A stretch of DNA of 64,000 nt, taken from Halobellus sp. LT62 (lineage in GTDB: Archaea > Halobacteriota > Halobacteria > Halobacteriales > Haloferacaceae). Shown here piece after piece: positions 41,429 through 63,509 of this stretch; the first letter of the stretch is position 1, and each line of letters opens with the position of its first letter. Location: the NCBI RefSeq assembly GCF_037031285.1, contig NZ_JAYEZO010000001.1:1178001-1242000 (forward strand), given 5' to 3'. Below the pieces are notes generated by a model. That model was not told the DNA's origin, ran no database searches, and worked only from the letters and a program-made list of their open reading frames with translations. Both the position numbers and the translations under genes were made by a program.

Positions 41429-42792
41429 ACGAGCACCTCCCTGACGGCCGCGACCAGGTCGTCCACTGCGTCGCTGTTGGTCTCCGTGACGCACACTTGG
41501 ATCTCGAACTCCCCGAGCTCGTGGACGAGGAAGCCCCGGTCCGCCAGTTCGTCGACCACTTCAGTGGCGGGGCGCTCCGTGCGCGCGACGAACTCGCGGA
41601 AGTGGTGGCGATCGTCGACCGGGGCCGAAGCGCCGTCGACGTCGTCGAGTCGAGCCGCGGCCTCGGCGGCCTGCGTCAGGGACTCCTCAGCGAGAGCCGC
41701 CAACCCCGTCGCACCCAACGAGGCGATGTGGATCGCCGTTCGGAGCGCGACCCACGCCTGGTTCGTACAGATGTTCGACGTGGCCCGTTCCTTCCGGATG
41801 TGCTGTTCTCTGGTCTGGAGGGTCAGCGTGTACGCACGCCGTCCATCAGCCGTCTCGCTCGTTCCCACGAGCCGTCCGGGAACCTGTCGCAGATACGCCT
41901 CTTTGACGGCGAACAGGCCGAGTCCCATTCCGTAGCTGGCTGAGAGGCCGAGGACGCTCGCATCGCCGATGACGATGTCCGCGCCCACCGCAGCCGGCTC
42001 CTTCAGCACCGCCAGTGCGACGGGATCCGATCCGAGACAGAACGCCGCCTCGTGGTCGTCCGAGAGAGTCGCGATCGCCGACAGTTTCTCCTCGATAGCA
42101 CCCCGGGCAGTCGGTGATTCAGCGTACACCATCACGACGTCCTCGTCGATCAGGCCCGAGAGCGCTTCGAGGTCGGTGTTCCCTGCGTCCAGCGGATAGG
42201 TCTCGACCGTCAGTTCCGCGCCGTCGGCGTGATTTTCCAACACGCTGCGGCGCTCCGAGCGGATGGTCTCGGGGACGAGTACCCGCGACCCGCTGGTCTC
42301 CCGAACGCGCGCGGCGAGTGTGGCCGCCTCGCCGAGCGCGGTCGCGGCGTCGTACATCGAGCAGTTGGCGACGTCCAGTCCGGTCAGTTCGACGATCATC
42401 GACTGGAACTCGAAGAGCGCCTGGAGGAATCCCTGCGACGTCTCCGGCTGGTACTGCGTGTAGGAGGTCAGAAACTCCGAACGCAGAGAGAGGTAGTCGA
42501 CGACCGACGGCACGTAATGATCGTAGTGGCCGCGCCCGAGGAATTCGGTCCGGTCCGCGTTCCGTCCGAGCAGGCCCTCGATCTCGCTTCTGACCTCGTA
42601 CTCCGATTTCGCCTCGATATCAAAGTCACCCCGGAACGTGACCGCCTCCGGGACGTCGAACAGTTCTTCTACGCTGTCGGCACCGGTCGCCGAGAGCATC
42701 GCCTCTACGTCCTCCGGCGTCTGTGGAGCGAAGGGGCTCGGTTCGTCCGGGTCGTGCGACAGGTCCGTTTCGTCGTGCTGTATTCGTTGCAT
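41425..42792 (-). CDS. gcvPA: Glycine dehydrogenase (decarboxylating) subunit 1
   Basis: A 455-residue alpha subunit of the split archaeal P-protein. Recognisable blocks are [32 protein letters not shown] and the [13 protein letters not shown] segment. It has the PLP fold but not the PLP lysine, which lies in GcvPB. An N-terminal extension of about 25 residues is Asp-rich. It follows gcvH with five bases between. Confidence 0.93.
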
Positions 42793-42797
42793 TGTCG

Positions 42798-43172
42798 TTA
42801 TTCGATCTGCTCGCGGTATTCGTCGACGTCGAGCGCGTCGTCGGGTACTTCTCCATCGATTTCGAAGAGCCAGCCCTCACCGTACGGATCGGTGTTGAGC
42901 AGTTCCGGTTGATCGAGAACGTTGTCGTTGGCCGCGGTCACGGCCCCGGAAATCGGCGTGTAGATGTCCGAGACCGCTTTGATGCTCTCGACGACGGCGC
43001 AGGCCGTCCCACTTTCGAGAGATTCGCCCTCCTCCGGGAGTTCGACGAACACGACGTCGCCGAGTTCGTCCTGCGCGAAGTCGGTGATCCCGATCCGCCG
43101 GACGTCTCCGTGGTCGTCGATCCATTCGTGTGAGTCGGTGTACTGTAAGTCGTCGGGCGTCTCGTTCGTCAT
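42798..43172 (-). CDS. gcvH: Glycine cleavage system H protein
   Basis: A 124-residue lipoyl carrier. The lipoylated lysine is Lys65 in VESIKAVSD, flanked by the [12 protein letters not shown] and [12 protein letters not shown] hairpins of the barrel. It shuttles the aminomethyl group between the P- and T-proteins and passes electrons to Lpd. It lies 69 bases downstream of gcvT and directly before gcvPA. Confidence 0.95.
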
Positions 43173-43241
43173 TGTTTCTGATATTCGCTGAGTGCGTTGT
43201 TCGTCATCGTTTCTGTCGATGTTGAGGGAAGTCGGTGTGCG

Positions 43242-44339
43242 TTACTCGCCACACGATTCGAGGAACGGCGTGTCGACAACGGTCGCATCGACGGACCGAT
43301 CGCGGATCGAGATCGAGAGATCCGTGCCGGAAGATGCGAATTCGGCGTCGACGTATCCAAGTGCGATCGGGACTCCGAGCGTGGGACTCATCGTCCCGCT
43401 CGTCACCTGACCCGCGGGGGCGCCGCCTGAGCTTATTTGGTGTTCGTGACGAGCGATCGCTCGCTCCTCGAGGCGGAGTCCGACAATCCGCTCGTCGATT
43501 CCTTCTTTTTGGGTCTGTTCCAAGGCCGAACGACCGACAAAATCCCCGCTATCGAGGTCGACAGCGAATCCGATATCGGCCTCGAAGGGATCGTGAGGTT
43601 CGTCCTCGGGATCGAAGTCCTGCCCGGAGAGTAGCAGTCCCGCCTCGAGCCGGAGGGTGTCTCTGGCCCCGAGCCCACAGCGCTGCACGTCGTCGAACAG
43701 GCGGTCGATCGCTGTCGCATCTTCACCCGGAAACAGGATCTCGACGCCGCCTTCACCGGTGTATCCCGTACGAGCGACGAGACACTCGACCTCGCCGACC
43801 GATGTTTCCTCCAAGGCAAACGGTTCCAGTTTATCGATTTGTTCGTCCGCCTCATCGTCGACCCGCTCTACTGCATCGGGCCCCTGGACCGCGATCATTC
43901 CGGTCTCCGTAGTTCGGTTCTCGAGGGAGACATCGAGACTCCAACGGACGGCGTATTCGCGCAGTCGACCGTACAGTTCCTCGTCGTGGCCGGCGTTCGG
44001 AACGACGACGTACTCGCTCTCGTTCGGGTGATCGTACACGACGATGTCGTCGAGCATCACGCCGTCAGACCGGAGAAAGCACGAGTACTGTGCCTCGCCG
44101 GGTTCGAGTCCTCGAACGTCGCTCGGAATGAGTCGATGCAACAACGTCTCCGCATCGGGTCCGTCGACAGCCAGCTGCCCCATATGGCTCACGTCGAACA
44201 ATCCGACACCCTCCCGGACGGCTCGATGCTCCTCCCGGATCGAGTCGAACGAGACCGGCATCTCCCACCCGCCGAAGTCGGTGAAGTCCGCACCCGCTCG
44301 ACGGTGAGATTCATACAGCGATGTTCGCTTGGATATCAC
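43242..44339 (-). CDS. gcvT: Aminomethyltransferase (glycine cleavage T protein)
   Basis: A 365-residue tetrahydrofolate-dependent T-protein. It opens with SLYESHRRAGADFTDFGGWEMPV, has VGLFDVSHMGQL, and the folate-site block ARTGYTGEGGVEI. It releases ammonia and forms methylene-THF. It is the first gene of the operon; a TATA-like element lies at 44361-44370. The whole operon (T-H-PA-PB-L) is complete, so glycine can be fully oxidised. Its location beside a folate-linked demethylase gene 14 kb away is discussed under findings. Confidence 0.94.
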   Translation of the reverse strand: MISKRTSLYESHRRAGADFTDFGGWEMPVSFDSIREEHRAVREGVGLFDVSHMGQLAVDGPDAETLLHRLIPSDVRGLEPGEAQYSCFLRSDGVMLDDIVVYDHPNESEYVVVPNAGHDEELYGRLREYAVRWSLDVSLENRTTETGMIAVQGPDAVERVDDEADEQIDKLEPFALEETSVGEVECLVARTGYTGEGGVEILFPGEDATAIDRLFDDVQRCGLGARDTLRLEAGLLLSGQDFDPEDEPHDPFEADIGFAVDLDSGDFVGRSALEQTQKEGIDERIVGLRLEERAIARHEHQISSGGAPAGQVTSGTMSPTLGVPIALGYVDAEFASSGTDLSISIRDRSVDATVVDTPFLESCGE

Positions 44340-49716: not shown

Positions 49717-49881
49717 TGTTAACTCCATAACTCGATGCGTTCCACCGGGATAAAAAACCATTGGGGGGGTGCTCTCTCGACAACTGACGAAGCAACGGTG
49801 ATTCGACGGCAACTCGGTCCATCGACATTGGCGGAAACAAGTGACGATAACTATTTGTATCTCGATAGAATCTCTCATCGT

Positions 49882-50676
49882 ATGTCGGAGACTGCTCCAA
49901 TCGTTAGAACGCTCGATATCGCCGATACCGTGTACGACATCACTTGGCAAGCTGCGGATGAAGGCCCCGAGATAACCCAAGGCGAACGCCACCGCACGTA
50001 TTTCTTCGACCTGCCGGGCGACGTCCCGACCCTCGTAGACACCTGCTTCCAGAACCGTGCTGAGTACCTCTTTGAGGGGATTGGCCAGATCGGAGTCGAA
50101 CCCGAGCGTCTCATCATCACTCATCGACACCTAGACCACGTCGGTGCCTTTGATGAAACCGTCGAGCGGTACGACCTAGAAACTTGGGTGCCGGAAAAAG
50201 ACAACGTGGTCGAGATCGATGACTATGGGATCGATATTCAGACCGAACCGGACCACCTCTTCGGTGACAAAGAACAGATCGGTCGGTTCGAGACCGTACA
50301 CGTGCCCGGACACTCACCCGGGAACTCTGTGCTCGTCGACGAAGAGGCGGGGATCGCTCACTGCGCCGATGCGGTCTCCGGCTCAGATCGTCGTGGTCTC
50401 CCACCAGGTTATCTGCTCCACCCGCCGCAGGCGACGCATACAAACCAACCAGCCGAAGCGGCTGTCGAAGCCGAAAAGAATCTCGAAAAACTGCTCGACT
50501 ACGAGTTCGATGTCGCCCTTCTTAATCACGGGACGCCGGTGTTCAAAGATGCCTCGAAGAAACTCGAACGGTACGTGAACTTCGAGTCGAACTTTAGCGG
50601 AGAGGGCCGATCGATCCACGCTAACGATCGGAAAACGATCAATGCAGACGAACTGTACAGCCGCCTTGACGAGTAA
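49882..50676 (+). CDS. MBL-fold metallohydrolase
   Basis: A 264-residue metallo-beta-lactamase-fold enzyme. ITHRHLDHVGAF gives the HxHxDH site, HVPGHSPGN the next His, HCADAV the bridging Asp and LLNHGTPVF the last His. The ATG at 49882 (MSETAPIVRTLDIAD) is chosen over an upstream frame start at 49735 because the fold begins there. It likely hydrolyses an ester, lactone or thioester. It stands alone on the plus strand between the SnoaL genes and a convergent oxidoreductase gene that starts two bases after its stop. Confidence 0.85.
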   Translation: MSETAPIVRTLDIADTVYDITWQAADEGPEITQGERHRTYFFDLPGDVPTLVDTCFQNRAEYLFEGIGQIGVEPERLIITHRHLDHVGAFDETVERYDLETWVPEKDNVVEIDDYGIDIQTEPDHLFGDKEQIGRFETVHVPGHSPGNSVLVDEEAGIAHCADAVSGSDRRGLPPGYLLHPPQATHTNQPAEAAVEAEKNLEKLLDYEFDVALLNHGTPVFKDASKKLERYVNFESNFSGEGRSIHANDRKTINADELYSRLDE

Positions 50677-50678
50677 CG

Positions 50679-51578
50679 TTATTCCGCGCTGACTCGATCT
50701 TCCAGTTCCCGTTCGAACATCTTCACCACGGCGCCGACGTCTTCCTCACCGAACCCCTCGTCACTAGCCTGTGTGTACAGCTGGTGGACCATGCTCCCCA
50801 TCATCATAGGAAAGTCCTCTGAATCGGCCATATCGACGGCGAGGCCGACGTCCTTACGTGCGAAGTCTACGCTGAATCCCGCCTCGAAATCTCGTTCAAG
50901 CACCCGAGGCATTCGGCTCTCGAACGCCACCGAAGTGGCGCTGGCGTTCCCGAGTATCTCCCAGAGGCGTTCGCTGTCGATTCCGTATCGAGCGCCGAGT
51001 GCGACAGTCTCCATCGCCAGCAGAAGGTTCCCCATCGACATAGTGTTGTTCAGCAGTTTCATTGCGTGTCCCGCTCCGGATGATCCCGCATAGTGGAGCT
51101 CCGCACAGAGTGCCTGCAACACATTCTGAGCGTGCTCGGATTCGAAGACCGTCTCATTCCCGCCGACGAGCCCGGTGAGCGTTCCCTCACGGGAGTTCTC
51201 CGGTCCACCCGTAATCGGCGCGTCCAGAATCTCGGCGGGCGTCTTTTCGACGGCAGCTGCCACGACTTCGGTCGTCGGCGGCGCGATTGTACTCATCTCC
51301 AGAAACGTGGTCTCGATGGATTCGTGAGCTAGTCCACCCTCGCCGGTGTAGACGCCCTTCACGATCTCGGAGTTTGGAAGGCTCGTGATAGTGACGTCAC
51401 TCTGTCGAGCAACATCCCGAGTGTCGTCAGCGACGATTCCACCGTAGTCAGCGAACGCTTCGCGAGCCTTCGGCTGAAGATCGTATCCGTACACCTCGAA
51501 GCCTTCGTCTAAGAGATGCTTCGCCATATTGCCACCCATCTTGCCGAGTCCGACGACTCCAGCAGTGGTCTCAACCAT
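50679..51578 (-). CDS. 3-hydroxyisobutyrate dehydrogenase-family oxidoreductase
   Basis: A 299-residue beta-hydroxyacid dehydrogenase. The N-terminal Rossmann motif GLGKMGGNMAKHL is followed by a DAPITGGPENSREGTLTGLVGG substrate region and the catalytic Lys in GHAMKLLNNTMSMGN. The family reduces or oxidises 3-hydroxyisobutyrate, tartronate semialdehyde or similar acids with NAD(P). The aldehyde dehydrogenase gene just upstream on the same strand suggests a semialdehyde intermediate shared by both enzymes. Confidence 0.88.
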   Translation of the reverse strand: MVETTAGVVGLGKMGGNMAKHLLDEGFEVYGYDLQPKAREAFADYGGIVADDTRDVARQSDVTITSLPNSEIVKGVYTGEGGLAHESIETTFLEMSTIAPPTTEVVAAAVEKTPAEILDAPITGGPENSREGTLTGLVGGNETVFESEHAQNVLQALCAELHYAGSSGAGHAMKLLNNTMSMGNLLLAMETVALGARYGIDSERLWEILGNASATSVAFESRMPRVLERDFEAGFSVDFARKDVGLAVDMADSEDFPMMMGSMVHQLYTQASDEGFGEEDVGAVVKMFERELEDRVSAE

Positions 51579-51678: not shown

Positions 51679-53121
51679 TCACTGGAAGTTGTGATAGACT
51701 GATTTGATCTGCGTGTACTTCAGCGCGCCGTGTTTACCGTCTTCACCACCCAGACCGGACTCGTTCCAGCCGATGTGGTGGCCCTGTTGAGCGCCACCGC
51801 TTCCGTTGATGAACGTCTCACCGAAATCGAGATCCTCCGTGATCTGCATCGCGTTTCGGTAGCTCTCAGTAAACACGTACGAAGAGAGCCCGTACCGCGA
51901 GTCGTTGGCATATTCGATGGCCTGGTCCAAAGAATCTACCTCGATGAGGGGCGCCACCGGCCCGAAGACTTCCTCCTTGACAACGTCCATCTCTTGGTCG
52001 ACGTTGGCGAGCACAGTCGGCAGTACCCAGTGGCCCTCGTCCGTCGGCGGATCACTCACCTCAATTCCGCCGGTAAGGACCGTCGCCCCCTGTTCGATTG
52101 CTTGCTTGATCGCCCGCTGGGTCTTGTCCTGTTCGGCCGCGCTTACCTGTGGGCCCATATCAGGATCGTCTCTCGGGTCGCCTATCTCCAGTGACTCCAT
52201 CGCGTCGACGAAGAGCGGCTGGAACTCCTCGTGCACGTCCTCGTGGACGTAGACGCGTTCGACGCACGTACACGCTTGCCCGGCATTGACCGTCCGCGAG
52301 GAGACAATATGACTCACAGCGCTTTCGATATCGGCGTCAGAACAGACAATCGCGGGAGCTTTCCCCCCGAGTTCGAGCGAGACACGAGTCAGGTCGTCGG
52401 CGGCGTTCCGCATTATCGCTTTCCCCGTCTCGACGTTCCCGGTCATTGTGACATAATCCACCTCGTCGTCGCTGACGAGTTTGGCACCGACGTTTCCGCC
52501 ACCGGCCACGACGTTCAAGACGCCCGGTGGAAGGTCGATTTCTTGGTGTATGAGATCCGTCAATTCGAGAGTCGTCAACGGCGTCAGCTCGCTCGGCTTG
52601 AGGACCGTGGTGTTACCCGTGACAAGCGCTGGGGAAAATTTTCTGACAAACACCGAGATGGGAAAGTTCCAGGGAATAATCCCTGAAACGACGCCGTACG
52701 GCCTGCGGAGAAGCGAGATCGACTGCCGTGGAGCGCTCCCCGGAACGACGTCGCCCTCGATACGACGGTCCCACTCCGCCATATACCGCGCGATGTCCGC
52801 CGATGCGCGAATCTCGTACGCAGCCACAGAGCGGGTCTTCCCCTGCTCTTCAACGAGCGTCTCCGCCAGGGAATCCACGTTCTCTTCGATGAGGTCGGCA
52901 ATTTCCCGGATCAGATCGCCGCGCTCTTTCGCCGGTCGACGCTGCCAGTCGTTCTGGGCTCTCCGGGCGGCTCTCGTCGCTCGCTCGACGTCTCTCTCGG
53001 TCGCCGAGGGTATCGATCGGATCTCTTTCCCGGTCGTCGGGTCGTGGACCGCAATCTTCTCGCCACCGCTTGATTCTGCCCACTCGCCGTGGATATAGAG
53101 GGGACTCATATCTACAGCCAT
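51679..53121 (-). CDS. NAD(P)-dependent aldehyde dehydrogenase
   Basis: A 480-residue ALDH superfamily enzyme. It has the WNFPISVFVRKFSPALVTGNT cofactor segment, the general base Glu in SLELGGKAP and the catalytic Cys in NAGQACTCVERVYV; the pattern is close to lactaldehyde/glycolaldehyde dehydrogenases (AldA group). It oxidises an aldehyde to an acid. The ATG at 53121 is used; ATG 53109 is also possible. It is upstream of the 3-hydroxyisobutyrate-type dehydrogenase and downstream of a complete ABC importer on the same strand. Confidence 0.88.
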   Translation of the reverse strand: MAVDMSPLYIHGEWAESSGGEKIAVHDPTTGKEIRSIPSATERDVERATRAARRAQNDWQRRPAKERGDLIREIADLIEENVDSLAETLVEEQGKTRSVAAYEIRASADIARYMAEWDRRIEGDVVPGSAPRQSISLLRRPYGVVSGIIPWNFPISVFVRKFSPALVTGNTTVLKPSELTPLTTLELTDLIHQEIDLPPGVLNVVAGGGNVGAKLVSDDEVDYVTMTGNVETGKAIMRNAADDLTRVSLELGGKAPAIVCSDADIESAVSHIVSSRTVNAGQACTCVERVYVHEDVHEEFQPLFVDAMESLEIGDPRDDPDMGPQVSAAEQDKTQRAIKQAIEQGATVLTGGIEVSDPPTDEGHWVLPTVLANVDQEMDVVKEEVFGPVAPLIEVDSLDQAIEYANDSRYGLSSYVFTESYRNAMQITEDLDFGETFINGSGGAQQGHHIGWNESGLGGEDGKHGALKYTQIKSVYHNFQ

Positions 53122-53289: not shown

Positions 53290-54156
53290 CTAGGTGCTAA
53301 CGGTGACCGCTTTGAACCCGACGAGGCGGGCGATCAGCACCACCAGTACTAATACGAGAAGGATCTGCACGGTGGCGACCGCGGCGATCAGCGGGGAGGA
53401 GTCGAACTGAAGGAAGAGGAAAATCTCCACCGGGAGCGTCGTCGTGTTCTTTCCGGACAGGAACAGCGCGACGATGGCATCGGTAAAGGAGAGGATAAAC
53501 GCCAGCAGGAACCCTGAGACGACGCCGCTCTTCATCAGCGGGAGCGTCACTTTCCGGAACGTCTGGAACTGCGTTGCACCAAGATTTCTAGCCGCCTGTT
53601 CGAGTTCCAGATCGATCGACTGAAGCGCCGTCATCGCGGTGAGGAAGGTGTATGGCAGCGTGATTATGATGTGGCCGGCGACGATCTTCAAGAACTGCGG
53701 GATAAAGTTCAGGAAATTGAAATTCATTGTGATCATCAGCGCCAGCGCGATGATCGCCGGCGGGATGATCAACGGCGAGATGAAGTACATCACGATCTCG
53801 TTCTCGAAGGGGAGTTCGCGCCTCGTGACGACGTAAGCAGCCATAATTCCGAATATGGACGCCACGAACGCAGTCGCTAGCGCGATCGGGACGCTCACCA
53901 AGAAGAACGCGTCGAAGAACGAACTCGAGAAGAACTCCGAGTACCACTGCAGGGAGAACCCCGCGGGCGGGAACGCCTGCGATTCTGTTGGGCTGAGCGA
54001 GATGCCGACAACGATTACGATGGGAAGGATCAGAATCGCGAACGAGAGCGCGAGCGCACCGTAGTAGAGCCCTTTGCCGGCGACGAGGGCCGGTGCTGAA
54101 AGTGACCGCGAGCCGCGGCCGGTGAGGACGCCCGAGACGACGCTCATCAGTCCCAT
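53290..54156 (-). CDS. ABC transporter permease (PotC type)
   Basis: A 288-residue membrane protein with about six helices and the transport motif EQAARNLGATQFQTFRKVTLPLM near residue 190. Its start overlaps the end of the partner permease gene (ATGs at 54156 and 54147). It forms the channel with the PotB-type protein for the binding protein at 56291. Confidence 0.9.
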   Translation of the reverse strand: MGLMSVVSGVLTGRGSRSLSAPALVAGKGLYYGALALSFAILILPIVIVVGISLSPTESQAFPPAGFSLQWYSEFFSSSFFDAFFLVSVPIALATAFVASIFGIMAAYVVTRRELPFENEIVMYFISPLIIPPAIIALALMITMNFNFLNFIPQFLKIVAGHIIITLPYTFLTAMTALQSIDLELEQAARNLGATQFQTFRKVTLPLMKSGVVSGFLLAFILSFTDAIVALFLSGKNTTTLPVEIFLFLQFDSSPLIAAVATVQILLVLVLVVLIARLVGFKAVTVST

Positions 54157-55055
54157 GCTGCCACCCCGAGCCGGTTGCGAACGAACTTGAAGTATCCGTA
54201 CACAAGAGCAGTGGTCGTGAGCGTCAGGACGGTTCCGATCGCGCTAGCGAACGGCCAGTTCAGACCGCCCACCGCCTGATCGTAGATCAGCAGCCCCATC
54301 GTAAGGTCAGAACGGCCGCCCAGCAAGTCTGGCGTGACGACGGCGTTCATCGTGAGGACGAAGACGAAGATCGTCCCGGTGACGAGGCCTGGAAGACTGA
54401 GTCTGAAGGTGATCTTCCAGAAGGCCTGGAGCTGGTTGGCCCCAAGGTTCCTAGCCGCCGGCACTAGCGAATCCGGAATGTCCTCAATGGAGGAGTAGAC
54501 CGGTAAAACGATCAGCGGTAAGTAGACGCCAATCAGCCCGATCGTCACCGAGAGGGTATTGCCGAGCAGATCGATGTTCAAGCCGATGACGCCGAGCACG
54601 TCGTTGACGATACCGTTCGTCGCAAACAGAACGATCCATCCGTACACCCGGATAACGGTTCCGACCATCAGCGGAAGGAAGACCGAAAACAGCGCTAGCT
54701 GCCGTTTCAACGGCGTCGTAGTCGCGATGAAGTACCCGAGCGGATAGCCTAACAGCACGCAGCACACCGAGACGATCACGGACAGTTTGACGGTGTACCA
54801 GAGCAGCCCCCTGTAGAACGAATCGAACAGGAGTTTCTCGTAGTGCTCGGTTGTGAAGTTCCACGATATGATCGTGGTGGCGCTGTACTCGAAGAAACTG
54901 ATGTAGACCGTGTACAAGATTGGGAGTATGAGGAATGCAGCGAGATACACCGCCGGCGGAAATGCCGGCAGCAGTTTGTCCAACCGTTCTGACCGCTCCT
55001 CGCCGAGAATACGGGTGAACGCGGAGTCCGTCGCTTCCGAAAGTGACCCCGACAT
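54147..55055 (-). CDS. ABC transporter permease (PotB type)
   Basis: A 302-residue permease with about six helices and the motif VPAARNLGANQLQAFWKITFRLSLPG near residue 200. Its start follows the stop of the ATPase gene by one base. Transporters of this class import polyamines, opines, organic acids or related solutes. Confidence 0.9.
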   Translation of the reverse strand: MSGSLSEATDSAFTRILGEERSERLDKLLPAFPPAVYLAAFLILPILYTVYISFFEYSATTIISWNFTTEHYEKLLFDSFYRGLLWYTVKLSVIVSVCCVLLGYPLGYFIATTTPLKRQLALFSVFLPLMVGTVIRVYGWIVLFATNGIVNDVLGVIGLNIDLLGNTLSVTIGLIGVYLPLIVLPVYSSIEDIPDSLVPAARNLGANQLQAFWKITFRLSLPGLVTGTIFVFVLTMNAVVTPDLLGGRSDLTMGLLIYDQAVGGLNWPFASAIGTVLTLTTTALVYGYFKFVRNRLGVAAWD

Positions 55056-55056
55056 C

Positions 55057-56100
55057 TCACACCTCCAGTAGCCCGTAATCGTTGAAGTAGAGGCTCACGT
55101 CGTCGCCCTTTTCATATTTCGGTGCACCCAAGTTAGTGACGAGGAACTCGTCGTCGCCAACTTGCACCTTGTACTCCGTCACGGAACCGAGGTGAACCGT
55201 ACTTACGATCGTGCCGGCGTACGTCCGTTCCGGTTCCCCCTTTGCGTCGATTTCTATGTCTTCCGGCCGGACGTAAAGTACGGCATCGGAGACATCGTCG
55301 TCCGCCTCTTGTAGAGGAAGCGAGAAGATACCTTTCTCGAACGTAATTTCGTCACCTGTCGTCTCGATACTGCCGGAGATGAAGTTCGAGTCACCGACGA
55401 AGTTCGCGCAGAACTCCGACTGTGGGTCCTGGTAGATCTCCGAGGGTGGCGCGTACCTGTCGGTCTGGCCCTCGCGAAGCACGAGGACTCGATCCGATAG
55501 TGTTAGGGCTTCACGCTGGTTGTGTGTGACGTAAATCGAGGTGATCTCCAAGCGTTCGTGGAGATCCTTAATCTCCCGACGCATCTGTTCTCGGAGTTGT
55601 CTGTCGAGATCGGAGAGCGGTTCGTCATAGAGGAGGAGGTCGGGTTCCAAGACGAGGACGCGTGCGAGGGCGACGCGCTGTTGTTCACCACCGGAGAGGT
55701 TCTGGATGCTCCGTTCCTCATAGCCCGGAAGCGAGACGATCTCTAGGATGTCTGCGATGCGGTCTTCGAGTTCCTCCTGAGATAGGTTTTCCCGGTGTCG
55801 AAGGCCGAAGGCGATATTGTCGAACACCGACATATGGGGAAACAACGCGAGGCGCTGGAAGACTAGGCCCATATTCCGGTCCTCCGGCGGGAGTCCGATC
55901 ATCTCGTTCCCGGCGACAACGATGTTCCCTCCATCTGGGTCGACGAAGCCAGCGATTGACTTCAACATCGTCGTCTTCCCCGACCCCGACGGACCGAGTA
56001 TCGAGACGAACTCGCCCTCCTCGATGTCCAGAGAGATGTCGTCAACGGCGACGACATCGTCGTACGTTTTTCTCAAATTCTGTATATCTACGAACGCCAT
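55057..56100 (-). CDS. ABC transporter ATP-binding protein (PotA type)
   Basis: A 347-residue ATPase with Walker A GPSGSGKTT, signature LSGGEQQRVALAR, Walker B LLLYDEPLSDLDR and a TOBE-like C-terminal domain (about 270-345, VLYVRPEDIEIDAKGEPERTYAGTIV). It is the second gene of a four-gene importer operon (binding protein, ATPase, two permeases) on the minus strand. Confidence 0.92.
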   Translation of the reverse strand: MAFVDIQNLRKTYDDVVAVDDISLDIEEGEFVSILGPSGSGKTTMLKSIAGFVDPDGGNIVVAGNEMIGLPPEDRNMGLVFQRLALFPHMSVFDNIAFGLRHRENLSQEELEDRIADILEIVSLPGYEERSIQNLSGGEQQRVALARVLVLEPDLLLYDEPLSDLDRQLREQMRREIKDLHERLEITSIYVTHNQREALTLSDRVLVLREGQTDRYAPPSEIYQDPQSEFCANFVGDSNFISGSIETTGDEITFEKGIFSLPLQEADDDVSDAVLYVRPEDIEIDAKGEPERTYAGTIVSTVHLGSVTEYKVQVGDDEFLVTNLGAPKYEKGDDVSLYFNDYGLLEV

Positions 56101-56290: not shown

Positions 56291-57466
56291 TTAGCCGGCT
56301 ATGATCTTGCGGAACTTTTCTCCGTCCTCGTTGGACTGTTTGGCCGCTTGGACCCAGTCTACGTCCACGTTGTAGCGTTCCATCTGCTCCTCGGACGGCT
56401 GGATCATCGGGTGGTTTTCGAGGGCCTCATCCGAGATGTGCTCGACAGCGTCAGGGTTGGCCGGGGGATAGCCCATTACTTCTGCGAACATCGCCTGTGG
56501 CTGTGGTTCGAGGCATCCATCAGCGAAGATTCGGGCCTGTTCGTGTCTGTCCTCGCCATTGTGCTTCGTAAGGGGATAGCCCCAGAAGTCCTGCGGCGCT
56601 CCGCCCTCGGGTACGGAGAATCCAATCTCGAGTCCTTCGTCGATTTCGAGGTTCTCCGCGCGGGCAGAGAGGAACGGCGCAACGTCCATCTCGTCGTTCG
56701 TCCAGAGCTGGAGAGCCTGGTCGATGGAGTCGAAGATGATGGGATCGGTGGTCTCGACGAACTCACGAAGCCACTCCAGTCCGGGTTCGAGGTTGTCGAG
56801 GTCGCCGCCCTTTGCGGCGTTGATCACGTAGAAGTACTTCGAGCCCGCGTTGTTCCACGGCTCGAACCCGACGCGGCCCTCGAGTTCCGGATCGATGAGG
56901 TCGTCCCAAGTGTTGAACTCCTTGTCCGTCTTATCCTCCCGGTAGGCGATTCCGCGAGGAAAGTACACGGTCCCGCACATATACTCGTTTCTGAAGGCCT
57001 CCGGAATGTTGTCGAAGTTGTCCAGCTCCTCCGCTTGGCTCGATACGGCATCGTTCTCGCCCAAGAGCGCCGCGCGCTGTCCGTCCAATTCGATAGCGTC
57101 GTACGCCGGATTCTCCGGATCCCGCTGGAGCTCCGAGACGTACTGCTCGGCGGCGATGCCTGAAAACTCGAGGTTGTGTTTGTCGTCCCAGGCAAGTTCT
57201 CCGTTGCGGAAGGGGTCATAGAACCCCTCGGCTCTCGACTCCCCCCAGCTTCCACCAGTGCCCGCGACACGCACGGTCGCCTTCTCACCGCCGCCGGAAT
57301 CGCTACCAGAACTGTCGCTGCTTCCGTCGCTGGAACCGCTGTCACCGCTGCCGCCACTGTCGCCACCGCTTCCGCCAGAACAACCGGCGAGACCGGCGAT
57401 CCCGGCACCGGCGCCGAGCGATTTTATCACTGTCCTCCGAGTCAGGGGGCTGTCATTGACACCCAT
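56291..57466 (-). CDS. ABC transporter substrate-binding lipoprotein (PotD type)
   Basis: A 391-residue exported binding protein from the ATG at 57466 (57472 is an alternative). It has a twin-arginine motif RRTVIK, a lipobox ending GLAGC, and a long Gly/Ser linker (about residues 25-60), then a two-lobed binding fold (TVRVAGTGGSWGESRAEGFYDPF). It is head of the importer operon; direct repeats flank its TATA box, and the divergent iclR at 57635 is the likely regulator. Confidence 0.87.
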   Translation of the reverse strand: MGVNDSPLTRRTVIKSLGAGAGIAGLAGCSGGSGGDSGGSGDSGSSDGSSDSSGSDSGGGEKATVRVAGTGGSWGESRAEGFYDPFRNGELAWDDKHNLEFSGIAAEQYVSELQRDPENPAYDAIELDGQRAALLGENDAVSSQAEELDNFDNIPEAFRNEYMCGTVYFPRGIAYREDKTDKEFNTWDDLIDPELEGRVGFEPWNNAGSKYFYVINAAKGGDLDNLEPGLEWLREFVETTDPIIFDSIDQALQLWTNDEMDVAPFLSARAENLEIDEGLEIGFSVPEGGAPQDFWGYPLTKHNGEDRHEQARIFADGCLEPQPQAMFAEVMGYPPANPDAVEHISDEALENHPMIQPSEEQMERYNVDVDWVQAAKQSNEDGEKFRKIIAG

Positions 57467-57476
57467 AGGCATCCAT

Positions 57477-57508
57477 TTTGATAAGAACATATAAATCTTT
57501 TTGATAAG
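57477..57508 (-). promoter_or_regulatory. Promoter with TTTGATAAG direct repeats
   Basis: TTTTGATAAG occurs at 57477-57486 and again at 57499-57508 on the plus strand, 22 bases (two helical turns) apart, on both sides of a TATA element (ACATATAAAT, about 57487-57496). The layout suggests a regulator site for the importer operon. Confidence 0.5.
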
Positions 57509-57634: not shown

Positions 57635-58405
57635 ATGAATAAACAAGGCAATGTGCTCAAGTCGGTTGGGAAAGTGTTCAAGATGCTCAAACACTTGAAA
57701 GAGGGAGGAGGAAAAACCGTGACAGAACTTTCAAAGGAGCTAGATATGCCCAAGAGCACCGTACAGGTGTACCTCAATACTCTCTATGCTCACAAATTTG
57801 TCGTGAAGAACGACGGCAAGTACGAGATCGGACTGCAGTTTCTGGAGTATGGGATGTACGCGCTCTGGAACGAACCTGCCTTTCCGAGCATCAAGTCTAA
57901 AGTGGAAGAACTGGCGGATACCTCCGGCGAACTGGCAGCCTGTTTCGTCGAGGAACTGGGGGAAGCGGTGTACGTCTACGGGACCGAGGGTGAAAGGGCC
58001 ATACGGACGGACCTCACGATGGGCGATCGGTCGGGGCTGCACTGCACCGCCAGCGGGAAGGCGATATTCGCTCACCTACCACCGAATCGAATTGACCAAA
58101 TCATCGAGACGCACGGGCTCGAAGCGAAAACTGAGCACACGATCACTGATCCCGACCAATTGAAAGAGGAACTGGCCTCGATCAGAGAGCGCGGGTACTC
58201 ATACTCCAGAGAAGAGTCCATCGAAGGAATGCGGTCCGTCGCAGCTCCGATCTTGATAGACGGCGTGGTCGTCTGCTCGATCAGCCTAGCGGGCCCCGCG
58301 AATCGCTTTGTCGGTGAGCGATTCCAAGAGGAGATTCCGAACATCGTCAGAGGTGCAGCGAACGAAATTGAACTGAAGCTGACCTACTCGGAGAGCGGTC
58401 TCTAA
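57635..58405 (+). CDS. IclR family transcriptional regulator 3
   Basis: A 256-residue regulator from the ATG at 57635 (the frame opens at a TTG at 57605). The winged helix is at about residues 5-60 (TVTELSKELDMPKSTVQVYLNTLYAH) and the effector domain has LHCTASGKAIFAHLPPNRIDQIIETHGLE and GMRSVAAPILIDGVVVCSISLAG. It is divergent from the importer operon and upstream of the LigM-like gene. Two GTGTAC-core motifs lie between its stop and that gene. Confidence 0.9.
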   Translation: MNKQGNVLKSVGKVFKMLKHLKEGGGKTVTELSKELDMPKSTVQVYLNTLYAHKFVVKNDGKYEIGLQFLEYGMYALWNEPAFPSIKSKVEELADTSGELAACFVEELGEAVYVYGTEGERAIRTDLTMGDRSGLHCTASGKAIFAHLPPNRIDQIIETHGLEAKTEHTITDPDQLKEELASIRERGYSYSREESIEGMRSVAAPILIDGVVVCSISLAGPANRFVGERFQEEIPNIVRGAANEIELKLTYSESGL

Positions 58406-58415
58406 TATACAATTG

Positions 58416-58437
58416 AAATAACAAGTGTACGCACGTT
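58416..58437 (+). promoter_or_regulatory. GTGTAC-core motif, copy 3
   Basis: AAATAACAAGTGTACGCACG, then TT. Twelve of 18 positions of AACAAGTGTACGCACGTT are symmetric. It starts 11 bases after the iclR 3 stop, the same relation as copy 2 to iclR 1. Confidence 0.55.
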
Positions 58438-58476: not shown

Positions 58477-58498
58477 CTATCAAGTGTACACACGTTAC
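58477..58498 (+). promoter_or_regulatory. GTGTAC-core motif, copy 4
   Basis: CTATCAAGTGTACACACGTT with a fully palindromic GTGTACAC centre, 59 bases after copy 3 and about 200 bases before the LigM-like start. A pair of sites here could control that gene. Confidence 0.5.
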
Positions 58499-58672: not shown

Positions 58673-58682
58673 ATTTATATAT
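58673..58682 (+). promoter_or_regulatory. TATA box for LigM-like gene
   Basis: TTTATATATA, 22-31 bases before the ATG at 58704. Confidence 0.55.
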
Positions 58683-58703
58683 AGAGACGGTAATCGGACT
58701 ACT

Positions 58704-60056
58704 ATGGCTAACCAGAGTCTACAGTCAGCCTTAGATGCAGCTGAAAGCCCGGTTGATATGCTAAAGGACGCGGGGGGACGTTGGACTTGGCCGCGAGAAG
58801 TCGCCCGCGAGTACACAAACTGGATGGACGAATTGCGTGCCGTCCGGGAAACGTGCGTGCTCGCGGATCTCTCACACCACCAGATGGACCAGATCATCGA
58901 GGGTCCAGACGCCTTCGAACTTCTGAAGCGACTCTCCACCAACAGCTTCGATGGGTTCGATGTAGGGAAGGCCAAGCAGGCGATTATGAGCAATCCCGAC
59001 GGAAAGTTCATCGGAGATGGCGTCCTCCAGCGCATCGGAGACGAAGAGTTCGTGATGAGCGGAAAGGTCCCGGCCGCTCACTGGGTCGCATACAACTTGG
59101 AGGCTGGGGGGTACGATGCGGAACAGACTATCTATCCGAAGTCCTCGAAATCCGAGAACGGCCCGCACTTCTTCACCTACCAGGTACAGGGACCGAACGC
59201 CCTCGACGTGATGCGGGAGGTCACCGATGATACGCTCACCGACATCCCCTTCTTCAATTTCAAAACCATCAACATCGCGGGCGAGGAGATCCGAGCGTTG
59301 CGCCACGGAATGGCCGGCGAGATCGGCTTCGAGCTGCAGGGCCCTTACGAGATTGGCGACCTGATCAAGGACGTGCTCCTCGAGGCCGGTCAGGAATACG
59401 GAATCAAACGCCTAGGCACGCGCGCGTACGAACCACTTAGCGTGAAGCTGGGCTGGGTAACCACGCACGTACCCGCAATCTACACAGGAGAGGAGATGCG
59501 CGAGTACCGCGAGTGGCTCGACGCCGACACGTACGAGGGAACGTACTCCATCGCGGGGAGCTATCTCTCCGACGACATCACCGATTACTACCTGAGCCCG
59601 ATCGACCTCGGCTACGACCATATGATCAACTTCGATCACGACTTCGTCGGCCGGGAGGCACTCGAGGCCGAGGCCGAAGACCCCGACCGCACCCGCGTTA
59701 CGCTCGTCTGGGACGACGAGGATGCCGCGGGGATATTCGCCTCCCTCTTTCAGGACGAGGAGCTCCCTCACAAGCTCTTTGACCTGCCGCGGGATCGCTG
59801 GGGCGGCCACCACGACAAGGTGCTCGACGGCGAGGATGTCATCGGGTTCTCGAAGAGTTTTGCTTACTCCTACAGCAACCGCGAGATGATCTCCATCTGC
59901 TCGATCGACAAAGAATACAGCGATCCCGGAACGGAAGTTTCCTTCATCTGGGGAGAAAAAGACGGTCAATCGCCAAATCCGACGGTAGAAGCACACTCGC
60001 AAACAGAGATATCTGCGACAGTCGCACCGAGTCCGTACCTCAACGATTCGCGATAG
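58704..60056 (+). CDS. GcvT-fold, LigM/DesA-like THF-dependent O-demethylase
   Basis: A 450-residue protein of the aminomethyltransferase (GcvT) fold, longer than GcvT or DmdA (about 365-370) and matching the length and layout of LigM/DesA, which move the methyl group of vanillate or syringate to tetrahydrofolate. Shared-looking blocks are LADLSHHQMDQIIEG, ALRHGMAGEIGFELQGPYE, VPAIYTGEEMREYREWL, INFDHDFVGREALEAE, the LFDLPRDRW region and a C-terminal SVAPSPY-like ending (VAPSPYLND). The ATG at 58704 fits the TATA box. Predicted products are a demethylated substrate and 5-methyl-THF. The substrate is inferred, not shown. Confidence 0.75.
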   Translation: MANQSLQSALDAAESPVDMLKDAGGRWTWPREVAREYTNWMDELRAVRETCVLADLSHHQMDQIIEGPDAFELLKRLSTNSFDGFDVGKAKQAIMSNPDGKFIGDGVLQRIGDEEFVMSGKVPAAHWVAYNLEAGGYDAEQTIYPKSSKSENGPHFFTYQVQGPNALDVMREVTDDTLTDIPFFNFKTINIAGEEIRALRHGMAGEIGFELQGPYEIGDLIKDVLLEAGQEYGIKRLGTRAYEPLSVKLGWVTTHVPAIYTGEEMREYREWLDADTYEGTYSIAGSYLSDDITDYYLSPIDLGYDHMINFDHDFVGREALEAEAEDPDRTRVTLVWDDEDAAGIFASLFQDEELPHKLFDLPRDRWGGHHDKVLDGEDVIGFSKSFAYSYSNREMISICSIDKEYSDPGTEVSFIWGEKDGQSPNPTVEAHSQTEISATVAPSPYLNDSR

Positions 60057-60272
60057 ATCGGGTATCGCTTAAAGCGGTCACGTGAGTCGTAATTTCCGCG
60101 TGAGCGTCTTTCTAACCCGTTCCTTCATTATCGTCGTCAACCTGCAGCCGAGGCGCCTACTAGTCAGTAGTAGACCCGTTCGATGGAATCGATACCACCG
60201 ATCTACTGGTGGACTTCGCCGTTGCTGATGTCGACTGCCTCCCACGCGACTGCTCCCAGTGGAGATCGAGCG
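60057..60272. other. Short intergenic region after LigM-like gene
   Basis: No gene seen; convergent with the dioxygenase remnant. Confidence 0.4.
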
Positions 60273-60683
60273 TCAAATAACTCCCCCGTATTGATCTCGG
60301 CTCGGCGGAGGACCGACGGAGTTGTTTTTTTTTTTTGACGGCTCATATATGCAATTCTTGAGGTTCGATCGCTGCTCCGCTGCGGGTTTCGGCTTTTCTA
60401 TCGTTCGATAAAGTTCGAACCAATGGCCGCTCGGTATCTCGAACTGGACCGCCTCTCCTTGTCGGGGCTTTGTGCCATCCTCAATCAAGGTGAGGTCGAA
60501 CCCCTACTGTTCGAACTTCTCCGCAAATCTGGTCACGTCCTCGGGTTCTGCTGTTTGTCATCCAATGTGGTCGACGCCCTCCACGGTTTCAATCCCGACG
60601 GCGTCGTGAAAGAACGGCAGTGATTCTTTGAGATTCGGTGTCTCGAGCGAGACGTAGTCTAGCCGTGCGACTTCGGGCACCAT
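60273..60683 (-). pseudogene. Extradiol dioxygenase-like (VOC) gene, broken
   Basis: From the ATG at 60683 the frame reads MVPEVARLDYVSLETPNLKE and continues with DHIG, a TGA (60558-60560) and QTAEPEDVTRFAEKFEQ, an amber (60504-60506), then GFDLTLIEDGTKPRQGEA and IPSGHWFELYRTIEKP. The order matches catechol 2,3-dioxygenase-like proteins, with the metal-ligand region near GVDHIG and the final Glu in HWFELYRT. The middle of the protein is missing (about 100 residues remain of about 300), so it is a deletion plus two stops. Both stops fall where Trp would fit. Confidence 0.65.
60325..60336 (+). terminator. T12 run
   Basis: Twelve consecutive T on the plus strand, about 270 bases after the LigM-like stop; archaeal transcription often ends at such runs. 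It lies inside the 3' tail of the broken minus-strand gene. Confidence 0.35.
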
Positions 60684-60708: not shown

Positions 60709-60850
60709 GTGAACTACCCCACCCTACCACTCGCCTGACGGCTCGCGCTTGAGGGTGGGGTTTCCTGTTTCCACGACGCGCTTTGCATCCACAACTGAGG
60801 ACGCAGGGAGCGCAGTCTCCACAGGCGTTGATTCGGAGCGTCCCGCTCCT
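60709..60850 (-). ncRNA. Candidate omega-RNA (reRNA) scaffold of TnpB
   Basis: By analogy with characterised TnpB systems, the 3' end of tnpB plus the right end forms the guide-RNA scaffold, and the guide is the flanking sequence beyond 60709. The right end here has complementary GAGGGTGGGG/CCCCACCCT blocks that can fold. The exact 5' end is not visible. Confidence 0.35.
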
Positions 60851-61947
60851 AACCGCTTCTTGATTCCGCGAGAAAGAATGTTCCACGCCGCGTTCGCATC
60901 TCTATCTGCCTCGAAACCGCAGGCAGGACAGGAATGTTCGCGCACCCACAGCGGCTTGTCTGTCGAGACGCCGCAGGACGCACACTCTTTTGTCGTCCCT
61001 CTCGGATTCACGGCGACGAAGTGCGTTCCCTCGCGTTCGCACTTGTATTCGAGCATCCGAAGGAACGCCCCCCACGCCGCACCTGCCCGGTTCCGAGAGT
61101 TGCCCGGCAGTTCGACCAAGCCCTTCGCGTCCAAGTCCTCGACGGCCACGAGGTCGTACTCCCGAGCGTAGTAGGCCGAGAGTTTGTGGAGGAAGTCGTG
61201 GCGCTTGTTCTTCAGGTCGGCGTGGCGTTCGGCCACAACGCGGCGCTGTTCCTCCCAATTCGCAGACCTGCGTTCCTTCCGCGAGAGGTTACGCTGTGCG
61301 CGTTCTAACCGCTCGCGCTCGTCGGACAGGTCGAGCGACTCGACGGCGGTGCCGTCGGTGTCGTGGGCATACTTGAGAATGCCAACGTCGATACCGACGC
61401 ATTTCTCGGGATTCTCGGGTTTCTCCGGCGGGTTGTCGGGAGTTTCGACGCCGAGGATAGCGTACCACTTGCCGGTGGGTTCCTGCTTGACCGTGACGGT
61501 CTTAATGTCGGCTTCGTCGGGGAGGTCGCGGTGGAAGGTGAGTGGGACTTCTCCGAGTTTCGAGAGCCACAGTCGCGTCCGACCGCTCGTGTTCTTGAGC
61601 TTGAAGCCGGATTGACTGTAGGTGAAACTACGGTACTCGCCCGGCGCTTTCCACTTGAGCGTCCCGACGCGGTAGCCGTTCTCTTTGCGACCGCGAAGCG
61701 TCGTGAGATTGTCGTACAGCCGTTGAACGACCTTCTGTAGCACTTTTGAGTGAACGCTCGTGAGGTCGTTCCACCACTTCTTGAGGCTCGGCAAGAGTTT
61801 CTGTTCGCTGTATGCCGAGGTGTCGTCGGTTCGGTTGAGTCGGTGGAGGAAGTGGTTGTAGACCTGTCTACAGGTATCGGCAGTCCACGCTAACTGCTGT
61901 TCGAGAGCGTCGGGCGGTCGAAGTCGATACCTGTAGTTGTAGTTCAT
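60724..61947 (-). CDS. tnpB: RNA-guided endonuclease TnpB
   Basis: A 407-residue complete TnpB. The RuvC residues are Asp187 (GIDVG), Glu270 (VAVEDLD) and Asp350 (DRDANAAWNIL); the zinc finger is Cys322/Cys325 and Cys340/Cys343. The N-terminal region (YNYRYRLRPPDALEQQLAWTADTCRQVYNHFL) is the usual helix-turn-helix/WED part. It cuts DNA next to a motif under guidance of an RNA from its own 3' end. Its ATG directly follows the TAG of the small upstream gene. Confidence 0.9.
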   Translation of the reverse strand: MNYNYRYRLRPPDALEQQLAWTADTCRQVYNHFLHRLNRTDDTSAYSEQKLLPSLKKWWNDLTSVHSKVLQKVVQRLYDNLTTLRGRKENGYRVGTLKWKAPGEYRSFTYSQSGFKLKNTSGRTRLWLSKLGEVPLTFHRDLPDEADIKTVTVKQEPTGKWYAILGVETPDNPPEKPENPEKCVGIDVGILKYAHDTDGTAVESLDLSDERERLERAQRNLSRKERRSANWEEQRRVVAERHADLKNKRHDFLHKLSAYYAREYDLVAVEDLDAKGLVELPGNSRNRAGAAWGAFLRMLEYKCEREGTHFVAVNPRGTTKECASCGVSTDKPLWVREHSCPACGFEADRDANAAWNILSRGIKKRLGAGRSESTPVETALPASSVVDAKRVVETGNPTLKREPSGEW

Positions 61948-62273: not shown

Positions 62274-63056
62274 TCAGTTACCGTTGTGGATCGTCCTGAG
62301 TCGCTCTCCGATTGTTGCGTCGATGGAGTTGAGGTCACCACCAACACGGAGGATCTGATATCCTCTCCGTTCTGCCTCCGCTATCGATTTTGTGTCGTTC
62401 CTGATTCCACCCAACGGGACATCGGCAGCAATACACGCGTCTTCAATGGCCTTAATCTGGTTGTTTACTTCGGGATGGTCCTTCTCTGACGGATGGTTCA
62501 TTTGCACCGAAAGGTCCGACGGGCCAATGAAGACGAATCCCAGCTTGGGGACGTCAAGGATTGCTTCGAGATCGTCGATAGCGGTCGTCTTCTCGATCAT
62601 CACACCGAGACAGACTTCCTGGTCCTCGGTTTGGATGTAGTTTTCAGCTGTCCCCCAACTACTGGACCGACCGCTTGCTTTCCCACGTTCTCCAGGTTGA
62701 CTGCCGTAGATAAATCGCGTTGCTTCGACTGCTTCGCGGACTTCGTCTGCAGAATCCACACGTGGGATGAGCAGATTCCGCACGCCCGCATCCAAGACCT
62801 TCCTGATAAGCGATGGATCCCCGTTCGGGATCCGAACGAACAGTTCCGTTCCCCCGACTTCAGCGGCGCGGGTGAGGTCTTCGAACACCCGACTGTCCCA
62901 CGGACTGGGTCCCATATGTTCGAAGTCAAGCCAGACGAAATCGACACCCAACTCACCGAAGACCTCGATGACAGTCGGTGAGAACGTCGACGCGCGTGCT
63001 CCATAAACGGTACCACCGTCTTCGATCTTTCGACGAAGGCTGTTGCTCTGATCCAT
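62274..63056 (-). CDS. HpcH/HpaI family aldolase
   Basis: A 260-residue metal-dependent class II aldolase of the HpaI group. It has DFVWLDFEHMGPSPWD, the VRIPNGDPSLIRKVLDAGV repeat, LIPRVDSADEVREAV, the GVMIEKTTAIDDL metal-ligand region and FIGPSDLSVQM. HpaI cleaves 4-hydroxy-2-oxo acids to pyruvate and an aldehyde, for example at the end of meta-cleavage pathways for aromatic acids. It lies just beyond the tnpB element and before a VOC protein on the same strand. Confidence 0.88.
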   Translation of the reverse strand: MDQSNSLRRKIEDGGTVYGARASTFSPTVIEVFGELGVDFVWLDFEHMGPSPWDSRVFEDLTRAAEVGGTELFVRIPNGDPSLIRKVLDAGVRNLLIPRVDSADEVREAVEATRFIYGSQPGERGKASGRSSSWGTAENYIQTEDQEVCLGVMIEKTTAIDDLEAILDVPKLGFVFIGPSDLSVQMNHPSEKDHPEVNNQIKAIEDACIAADVPLGGIRNDTKSIAEAERRGYQILRVGGDLNSIDATIGERLRTIHNGN

Positions 63057-63143: not shown

Positions 63144-63509
63144 TTAGTCGTCGTCCGAAACGACTTGGAACCGATTCCCGTCTGGGTCTCTGAAGTTCGT
63201 GATCGTACGACCTGTCTTGTCGACGTCGTACGGCCCCACGATCGAGTCGATATCCGCTTCTTCTAACTGCTCAGAGACCTGTTCGATGTCATCGACTGCG
63301 AAGGCGATGTGATTGATTCCCGGTGTTTCTTCGCCGGAGACCGTATGGATCTCGAAGAGTGGGCCGTCTCCATTAGCAGGGACGTATTCGTAGGATTCTC
63401 CGTGGTGTTCGGTTTGCCGATGCTGCTCGTATCCGAGTTTTTCAAAGAATTCCGCCATCTCTGAAGCATCGCTTACTTCTATCTCAATGTGGTCGATTTC
63501 ACTAATCAC
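63144..63509 (-). CDS. VOC family (glyoxalase/dioxygenase-like) protein
   Basis: A 121-residue single vicinal-oxygen-chelate domain. Likely metal ligands are the His in IDHIEIEV, the Glu in FEIHTVSGEE and the His in INHIAFAV, with FRDPDGNRFQVV at the C-terminus. The family includes glyoxalases, epimerases and extradiol dioxygenases; a single-domain protein of this length is more likely a glyoxalase or isomerase. It is 87 bases upstream of the aldolase gene on the same strand and probably co-transcribed. Confidence 0.82.
   Translation of the reverse strand: MISEIDHIEIEVSDASEMAEFFEKLGYEQHRQTEHHGESYEYVPANGDGPLFEIHTVSGEETPGINHIAFAVDDIEQVSEQLEEADIDSIVGPYDVDKTGRTITNFRDPDGNRFQVVSDDD

Follow-up and report, generated by a model that had tools for sequence, protein, structure and literature searches.

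A LigM/DesA-family protein of Halobellus sp. LT62 is a probable tetrahydrofolate-dependent aryl-O-demethylase

Introduction

The closest described relatives of the protein reported here are LigM, the vanillate/3-O-methylgallate O-demethylase of Sphingobium SYK-6 (PDB 5x1i-n and 5tl4), and DesA, a syringate O-demethylase. In SYK-6, LigM and MTHFR make up a one-carbon route (PMC12585457), which served as our model for the similar pairing of LigM-family and MTHFR genes in haloarchaea. The demethylenases SesA and BrdA are also tetrahydrofolate (THF)-dependent enzymes of the GcvT superfamily that act on plant aromatics, but they form a separate branch; according to PMC5547118, BrdA is much nearer to GcvT (44-50% identity) than to LigM/DesA (only 26.7%). 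Archaeal aryl-O-demethylation is described in PMC10989822 for archaea outside the halophilic class (Archaeoglobus, Methermicoccus and Bathyarchaeia). Those corrinoid systems are four-part cobalamin methyltransferases, whereas the protein proposed here would carry out such a reaction alone, with folate, in what is presumed to be an aerobe.

With regard to haloarchaea, the eLignin review names five isolates of archaea, every one a halophile, on benzoate-, cinnamate-, hydroxybenzoate- or phenol-type substrates (PMC6486533), and a review of hypersaline environments gives gentisate routes (PMC4005966). Across the literature searched, archaeal aryl-O-demethylation was corrinoid-dependent, and haloarchaeal aromatic catabolism concerned mainly benzoates and gentisate. 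No LigM/DesA-type or folate-dependent O-demethylase was reported for haloarchaea in the open-access literature searched. A preliminary description of the present locus had remarked that aromatic O-demethylation of this type was not known to be described in this group; the remark holds provisionally, because most subscription papers lay outside the search.

We analyzed a 64,000-nt stretch of the Halobellus sp. LT62 genome (the window) that encodes a LigM/DesA-like protein, P0001. Our preferred reading, to which we assign a probability of roughly 0.78 on the basis of sequence comparisons and a predicted structure, is that P0001 acts as a THF-dependent aryl-O-demethylase whose products enter meta-cleavage and folate one-carbon metabolism.

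Results and Discussion

The P0001 open reading frame is uninterrupted on the plus strand from the ATG at 58704 to a stop codon ending at 60056 and encodes 450 amino acids. Its start methionine is common to its orthologues, and comparison with three of them gave a dN/dS of about 0.11-0.16, indicative of purifying selection; on these grounds P0001 is a real protein-coding gene. The best NCBIfam model was DesA, matched over the full length at 451.7 bits, yet the curated cut-off of that equivalog (NF047633) is 800. The LigM equivalog (NF047885) was also matched over the full length, at 435.4 bits compared to a cut-off of 580. Both scores were far above those for other members of the fold, namely sarcosine oxidase alpha (100 bits), GcvT (83.5 bits, and 65.2 bits for TIGR00528 with a cut-off of 235.85), TMAO demethylase (81 bits) and DmdA, the DMSP demethylase (49.4 bits, cut-off 410). 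A PDB search returned LigM first at 3e-110 and the next enzyme at 5e-19, and the alignment with LigM had 185 of 441 positions identical (about 42%). An AlphaFold2 model built on a 29-sequence alignment had a mean pLDDT of 90.2. In Foldseek comparisons, the model matched LigM chains with query TM scores of 0.89-0.95 at about 40% identity, compared to no more than 0.67 for GcvT, DMGDH and DmdA structures, with GcvT identity of about 20%. P0001 as a GcvT, DmdA, DMGDH/sarcosine oxidase or TMAO demethylase was ruled out by the profiles, the PDB search and the fold comparison. The preliminary description had called the protein a LigM/DesA-like enzyme of the GcvT fold, a call with which profiles, PDB search, tree and model all agree; placement with DmdA, dimethylglycine enzymes or GcvT, which it had named as a refutation, was seen neither in the profiles nor in the fold comparison, nor, for GcvT, in the tree.

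Two trees were drawn. An 86-row quick tree of 85 family rows and one GcvT outgroup, with no DmdA or DMGDH rows, was taken from a 112-locus set, LigM and 4 extra copies after near-identical and some bacterial rows were dropped. P0001 grouped with LigM/DesA in this tree, the outgroup was on a very long branch, and the haloarchaea occupied one side of a branch with a support of only 79. In a tree of 59 hand-picked rows, one branch (100/99) had 28 of the 29 bacterial rows and LigM on one side and all 30 haloarchaeal rows on the other. A single Streptomyces row (L163) with a long branch fell inside the haloarchaeal side and was without the His60 and Tyr247 equivalents. The topology, in which the root is left unfixed, fits a single acquisition followed by radiation in haloarchaea. 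When rows were scanned against the cut-offs, 7 of 7 bacterial rows passed LigM and 3 of these (L119, L073 and L164) passed DesA as well, while three paralogues from the host genome passed neither; the rows over the DesA cut-off lie on the bacterial side of the tree. By these sequence criteria, P0001 belongs to the LigM/DesA family, on its haloarchaeal side, and is neither a LigM nor a DesA equivalog.

The host genome has eight full-length family genes, P0001 and seven others at 44-53% identity, as well as seven further, weaker GcvT-type matches. In a survey of 292 haloarchaeal genomes, with up to five candidates scored per genome, a family match (E of 1e-60 or better) was found in 13 genomes and in 5 of 77 genera. 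Eight of the 13 positive genomes belong to one genus, and the co-occurrence counts given below are not independent. The rows from a genome of the same genus (L014) and from Halobellus inordinatus (L046) were identical. Six family places were found on a Halobellus limi plasmid record, and in the stretches examined of H. limi plasmid NZ_CP031313.1 (L165 and L149) five LigM-like genes are annotated. Some of the plasmid genes are near CoA ligase, enoyl-CoA hydratase, CoA-transferase and RraA-family genes, neighbors that would suit hydroxycinnamate breakdown.

Residues of the active site were compared using LigM numbering set by a single offset of 3, which fitted all eight residues considered. We take the THF-binding and catalytic set of LigM to be Gln165, Glu215, Trp256 and the catalytic Tyr247, and we presume that His60 is also a functional residue and that Tyr29, Tyr31 and Arg122 form the vanillate pocket, with Arg122 holding the vanillate carboxylate. 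P0001 keeps His59 (LigM His60), Gln160 (Gln165), Glu210 (Glu215), Tyr242 (Tyr247) and Trp251 (Trp256), and thus shares with LigM the THF-site residues, His60 and Tyr247 in addition to length and predicted fold, the latter at a TM score of 0.94. In contrast, Lys121 replaces Arg122, and Trp27 and Trp29 replace Tyr29 and Tyr31. The aromatic-binding residues that the preliminary description had proposed to inspect were retained in part: of the LigM pocket, P0001 keeps the His and a Tyr and has the Arg and two other Tyr replaced. The likeness of P0001 to vanillate/syringate demethylases held for family, fold and pathway context, but P0001 as a vanillate or syringate equivalog was ruled out by both cut-offs together with the changes at Arg122, Tyr29 and Tyr31.

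The loss of Arg122 extends beyond P0001. In the 112-locus alignment, Arg122 was present in 60 of 60 bacterial rows (the best 60 of 551 relatives) and absent in all 52 haloarchaeal rows, P0001 counted. Orthologues of P0001 have Lys at this position, and other haloarchaeal rows have Met, Val, Thr, Pro, Ala, Gly, Tyr or Ser. L027, a divergent LigM-like protein of genome G256, was the only haloarchaeal row without the His60 and Tyr247 equivalents. Arg122 is not universal in bacteria, since in a second set of 24 bacterial ORFs (eight shared with the 112-locus set) three had His, Met or Ala instead; one H. limi copy in that set had Glu. One of the three, a Rhizobium gene (L151), adjoins a dioxygenase and a maleylacetate reductase gene. 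Some bacterial loci combine a catechol-2,3-dioxygenase-like (C23O-like) gene with a retained Arg122, so the loss is not simply tied to the type of dioxygenase. Because Arg122 is Lys here and an uncharged residue in the other haloarchaeal rows of the 112-locus set, vanillate is unlikely for P0001, and the substrate is probably another compound, although Lys121 could still hold an acid. Our tentative suggestion, slightly more apt to prove wrong than right, is a guaiacyl-type methyl ether that has no ring carboxylate or has its acid placed differently. Separately, the paralogue L040 (G000:C2:1254937-1273937) and the clade of L003, L015 and L046 have Thr at the Arg122 position and lie next to an ABC transporter of their own and a gene that, from its first residues, resembles glycerol kinase, with no C23O seen near these loci; that clade may act on a different substrate.

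Downstream of P0001 we found a feature that the preliminary description had not picked up, a pseudogene of a catechol-2,3-dioxygenase-like class I extradiol dioxygenase (60167..60683, minus strand), recognized by comparison with an intact H. limi orthologue of 313 amino acids (L149:25385-26326). The C23O-type gene of the window is not intact: homology is confined to residues 1-150 and 267-313, the sequence changes frame, has in-frame stops and carries an internal deletion, and the part that would hold all three iron ligands is missing. A run of about 12 T is found near the junction of the two remnant parts. The H. limi protein scored 248 bits with TIGR03211, below the cut-off of 320.2, and its best structure matches were catechol and homoprotocatechuate dioxygenases. 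Intact orthologues keep the His-His-Glu iron site (H155/H219/E270) of class I extradiol enzymes. A homoprotocatechuate route from homovanillate, considered for the HpaI and HpaD matches, was judged weak, as the positions of 1f1r Arg243 and Arg293, which we take to hold the homoprotocatechuate carboxylate, are Asp and His.

An intact C23O adjoins the P0001 orthologue in H. limi, in G275 and in Salinigranum. Intact copies at LigM loci were those of L041 (G275, 78%), L044 (Salinigranum, 75%), L071 (57%) and L045 (45%). The host genome has two intact homologues elsewhere, one of 62% identity 12 kb from paralogue L004 and one of 42% about 20 kb from paralogue L002. The 62% homologue may replace the dead enzyme of the locus. 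Also about 20 kb from L002, together with C23O, are genes for an aldehyde dehydrogenase, a DmpE/HpaH-like hydratase, a 4-hydroxy-2-oxovalerate aldolase (469 bits, cut-off 286) and an acetylating acetaldehyde dehydrogenase (385 bits, cut-off 282), a set that by its profile matches is a lower meta-cleavage pathway. A C23O-like gene with a near-complete lower meta-cleavage set was noted in the host genome at L158:1104-8211 (G000:C1:997000-1016500). In LigM of SYK-6 the associated ring cleavage is of the LigAB type, whereas the P0001 locus is tied to a VOC-type dioxygenase; searches of the host genome gave 0 matches to the LigB (protocatechuate 4,5-dioxygenase) family and 0 to the intradiol dioxygenase families.

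Of the 292 haloarchaeal genomes, 16 had a C23O-like gene; 10 of these belonged to the 13 LigM-positive genomes (Fisher 2e-12, uncorrected for kinship, with 8 of the 13 from one genus), of which the other three had none at the threshold. Seventeen of the 28 C23O-like genes, in ten genomes and leaving out the window pseudogene, were within 25 kb of a scored LigM gene, and 11 were farther than 25 kb from any scored LigM gene or on another contig. In the fetched flanks of 78 genome-contig loci, C23O-like genes were present at 3 of 18 haloarchaeal and 8 of 60 bacterial loci, MTHFR at 6 of 18 and 15 of 60, and LigB-like genes at 0 of 18 and 3 of 60. Bacterial LigM-like loci with both MTHFR and ring-cleavage genes exist.

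Since the local ring-cleavage gene is broken, the pathway of the P0001 locus may be crippled or decaying in the host genome. In its strongest form, this would make P0001 a decaying remnant, intact but no longer useful in this organism, as the dioxygenase pseudogene lying alongside a TnpB gene would suggest; the IS200/IS605-type TnpB (60724..61947, minus strand, by profile match) adjoins the pseudogene. However, the reading frames of the demethylase, the regulator, the transporter and the enzymes are all open, the dN/dS of P0001 is low (a value averaged over divergence between species and insensitive to recent decay), and the genome retains the intact 62% homologue. We regard a remnant as unlikely, and it would be compatible with aryl-O-demethylation as the function of the family.

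The genes around P0001 form a conserved block. Toward the end of the window, all on the minus strand, are an HpaI/HpcH-type aldolase (62274..63056), linked to the LigM orthologue in L041, L042, L043 and L149, and a small VOC-superfamily protein (63144..63509), linked in L041, L043, L044 and L149. On the other side, beyond the regulator described below and likewise on the minus strand, is a PotABCD-like ABC transporter made up of a solute-binding protein assigned by its PotD-like position and synteny, with no NCBIfam match (56291..57490), a PotA-like ATPase (55057..56100) and PotB-like (54147..55055) and PotC-like (53290..54156) permeases. These are followed, on the same strand, by an aldehyde dehydrogenase (51679..53121; best NCBIfam PRK10090, 520 bits, above the cut-off of 500), a beta-hydroxyacid dehydrogenase family oxidoreductase (50679..51578), four SnoaL-domain proteins syntenic with the LigM locus (45567-46046, 46244-47233, 47525-48553 and 48715-50130) and glycine cleavage genes (38584..44339) for Lpd, GcvPB, GcvPA, a 124-aa product in the GcvH position, and GcvT. 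G275 and G217 share the whole order, in which the glycine cleavage genes come first, then SnoaL, beta-hydroxyacid dehydrogenase, aldehyde dehydrogenase, PotCBAD, IclR, LigM and finally the aldolase. The glycine cleavage set is syntenic in two congeneric genomes, and linkage is what would tie it to the demethylase pathway. The host genome differs in this respect from SYK-6, which has no glycine cleavage system. A second set was apparent by eye at L143:1880-6268.

In H. limi, whose orthologue WP_103992714 is 80% identical to P0001, the annotated order is VOC protein, aldolase, 313-aa VOC protein, LigM-like protein, IclR, solute-binding protein, ABC ATPase and two permeases, followed by aldA, an NAD(P)-dependent oxidoreductase, an MBL protein, five 'ester cyclases' and a MetE-like protein. 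Salinigranum has a shorter version of the gene set, and Halorubrum vacuolatum conserves LigM, aldolase and VOC protein. The tandem run of SnoaL-domain genes is unusual and is tied to the locus in H. limi (L149:36760-41829) as in the window.

The HpaI-type aldolase, beta-hydroxyacid dehydrogenase, aldehyde dehydrogenase and PotABCD genes could also serve sugar-acid catabolism. P0001 might then use folate to demethylate a non-aromatic donor, for instance a methylated sugar acid or quaternary amine that the PotABCD-like transporter takes up, and the three enzymes would complete a sugar-acid-like pathway. The resemblance of the aldolase and the beta-hydroxyacid dehydrogenase to GarL/GarR-type enzymes, the replacement of LigM Arg122 and Tyr29/31 and the position of a LigM cluster near sugar-acid genes on the H. 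limi plasmid agree with such a donor. They are opposed by the C23O-like gene adjoining the orthologue in three genomes and left as a pseudogene in the window, by the enrichment of C23O in LigM-positive genomes and by the retained equivalent of Tyr247. Sugar-acid catabolism was demoted as the main reading of the gene block because a dioxygenase was found in the H. limi locus and as the window pseudogene, and we now consider a non-aromatic donor improbable.

The aromatic reading is further joined to folate metabolism by MTHFR. MTHFR (PF02219) was present in 71 of the 292 haloarchaeal genomes and in all 13 LigM-positive ones (hypergeometric 4e-9, uncorrected for kinship). A LigM gene was 235-1,031 bp from the MTHFR match in seven of the 13 genomes, and the gap was 2.6 kb in an eighth and 11.5 kb in a ninth; G095 had no MTHFR on the contig of the LigM gene, and in G030, G048 and G256 it was more than 60 kb away or on another contig. 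In the host genome, MTHFR does not adjoin P0001, and FolD is present. In Salinigranum (L044), the P0001 orthologue, dioxygenase and MTHFR are within one 17-kb locus, and this MTHFR is 64% identical to the LigM-adjacent MTHFR of the host genome. The linkage points to 5-methyl-THF as the product. A SesA/BrdA-like demethylenase that opens methylenedioxy rings to give 5,10-methylene-THF would share the GcvT superfamily, the use of THF and, according to PMC5547118, the action on plant aromatics, but is very improbable given the MTHFR linkage and the identities of P0001 to LigM and to GcvT structures, the opposite of the BrdA pattern in that source.

Under aryl-O-demethylation, the divergent PotABCD-like importer would take up a phenolic methyl ether, which would bind in the LigM-type pocket of P0001. 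Tyr242 would give a proton to the leaving phenolate, and N5 of THF, held by Gln160, Glu210 and Trp251, would accept the methyl group to yield a catechol and 5-methyl-THF. MTHFR working in the oxidative direction would then convert 5-methyl-THF to 5,10-methylene-THF for FolD, serine or glycine metabolism, and a VOC-type extradiol enzyme resembling catechol-2,3-dioxygenase would act on the catechol, followed by an aldehyde dehydrogenase and an aldolase. Weighing against this scheme are the sub-cut-off scores, Lys121, Trp27 and Trp29, the broken local dioxygenase and the lack of an adjoining MTHFR. Taken together, family placement, predicted fold, catalytic residues and pathway context support the THF-dependent aromatic O-demethylase suggested in the preliminary description.

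We also consider, with somewhat better than even confidence, that in Halobellus above all and in a few other haloarchaeal lineages one acquired LigM/DesA-type enzyme gave rise to as many as eight folate-dependent aromatic O-demethylases with rebuilt pockets. Several would have their own importer and IclR regulator and be coupled to MTHFR and VOC-type meta-cleavage dioxygenases, for an aerobic, cobalamin-free metabolism of methoxyaromatics (lignin monomers) whose substrates do without the LigM-type carboxylate contact. If true, hypersaline archaea can use methoxylated plant aromatics as a source of both carbon and one-carbon units. The family would then offer a natural pocket series (Arg122 to K, M, V, T, P, A, G, Y and S, with the catalytic Tyr kept) for testing substrate choice, and salt-adapted enzymes of possible use in lignin conversion.

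The upstream elements named in the preliminary description, an IclR gene, a TATA box of the P0001 gene's own and two candidate operators, were all located. The IclR-family regulator (57635..58405, plus strand) matched PF01614 at 127 bits and PF09339 at 38 bits; its best NCBIfam models were BhcR (155.6 bits, cut-off 350) and then PcaR/PcaU/PobR (126.9 bits, cut-off 284.75). A TATA-like box, tttatatata, was read from the sequence at 58674..58683 (plus strand), its center about 26 nt ahead of the P0001 ATG, a spacing expected for a leaderless haloarchaeal transcript. The 15-mer AAGTGTACnCACGTT, operator-like by inspection, is present twice in the spacer between the IclR gene and P0001, as site 1 (AAGTGTACGCACGTT, 58423..58437) and as its repeat, site 2 (AAGTGTACACACGTT, 58482..58496). 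With up to 2 mismatches allowed, AAGTGTACnCACGTT had no match in the orthologous loci; the corresponding places in the orthologous spacers have similar palindrome-like sites, such as ATAACATATGTACATTTGTTAT. IclR would control P0001, probably through the two spacer sites.

A last observation concerns a MetE-like gene of the 'methionine synthase II family' that recurs near LigM-type loci of Halobellus and Novosphingobium (L149:41996-43153; L147:3743-4897, first residues only; L164:9780-10907). It could be another methyl-handling enzyme.
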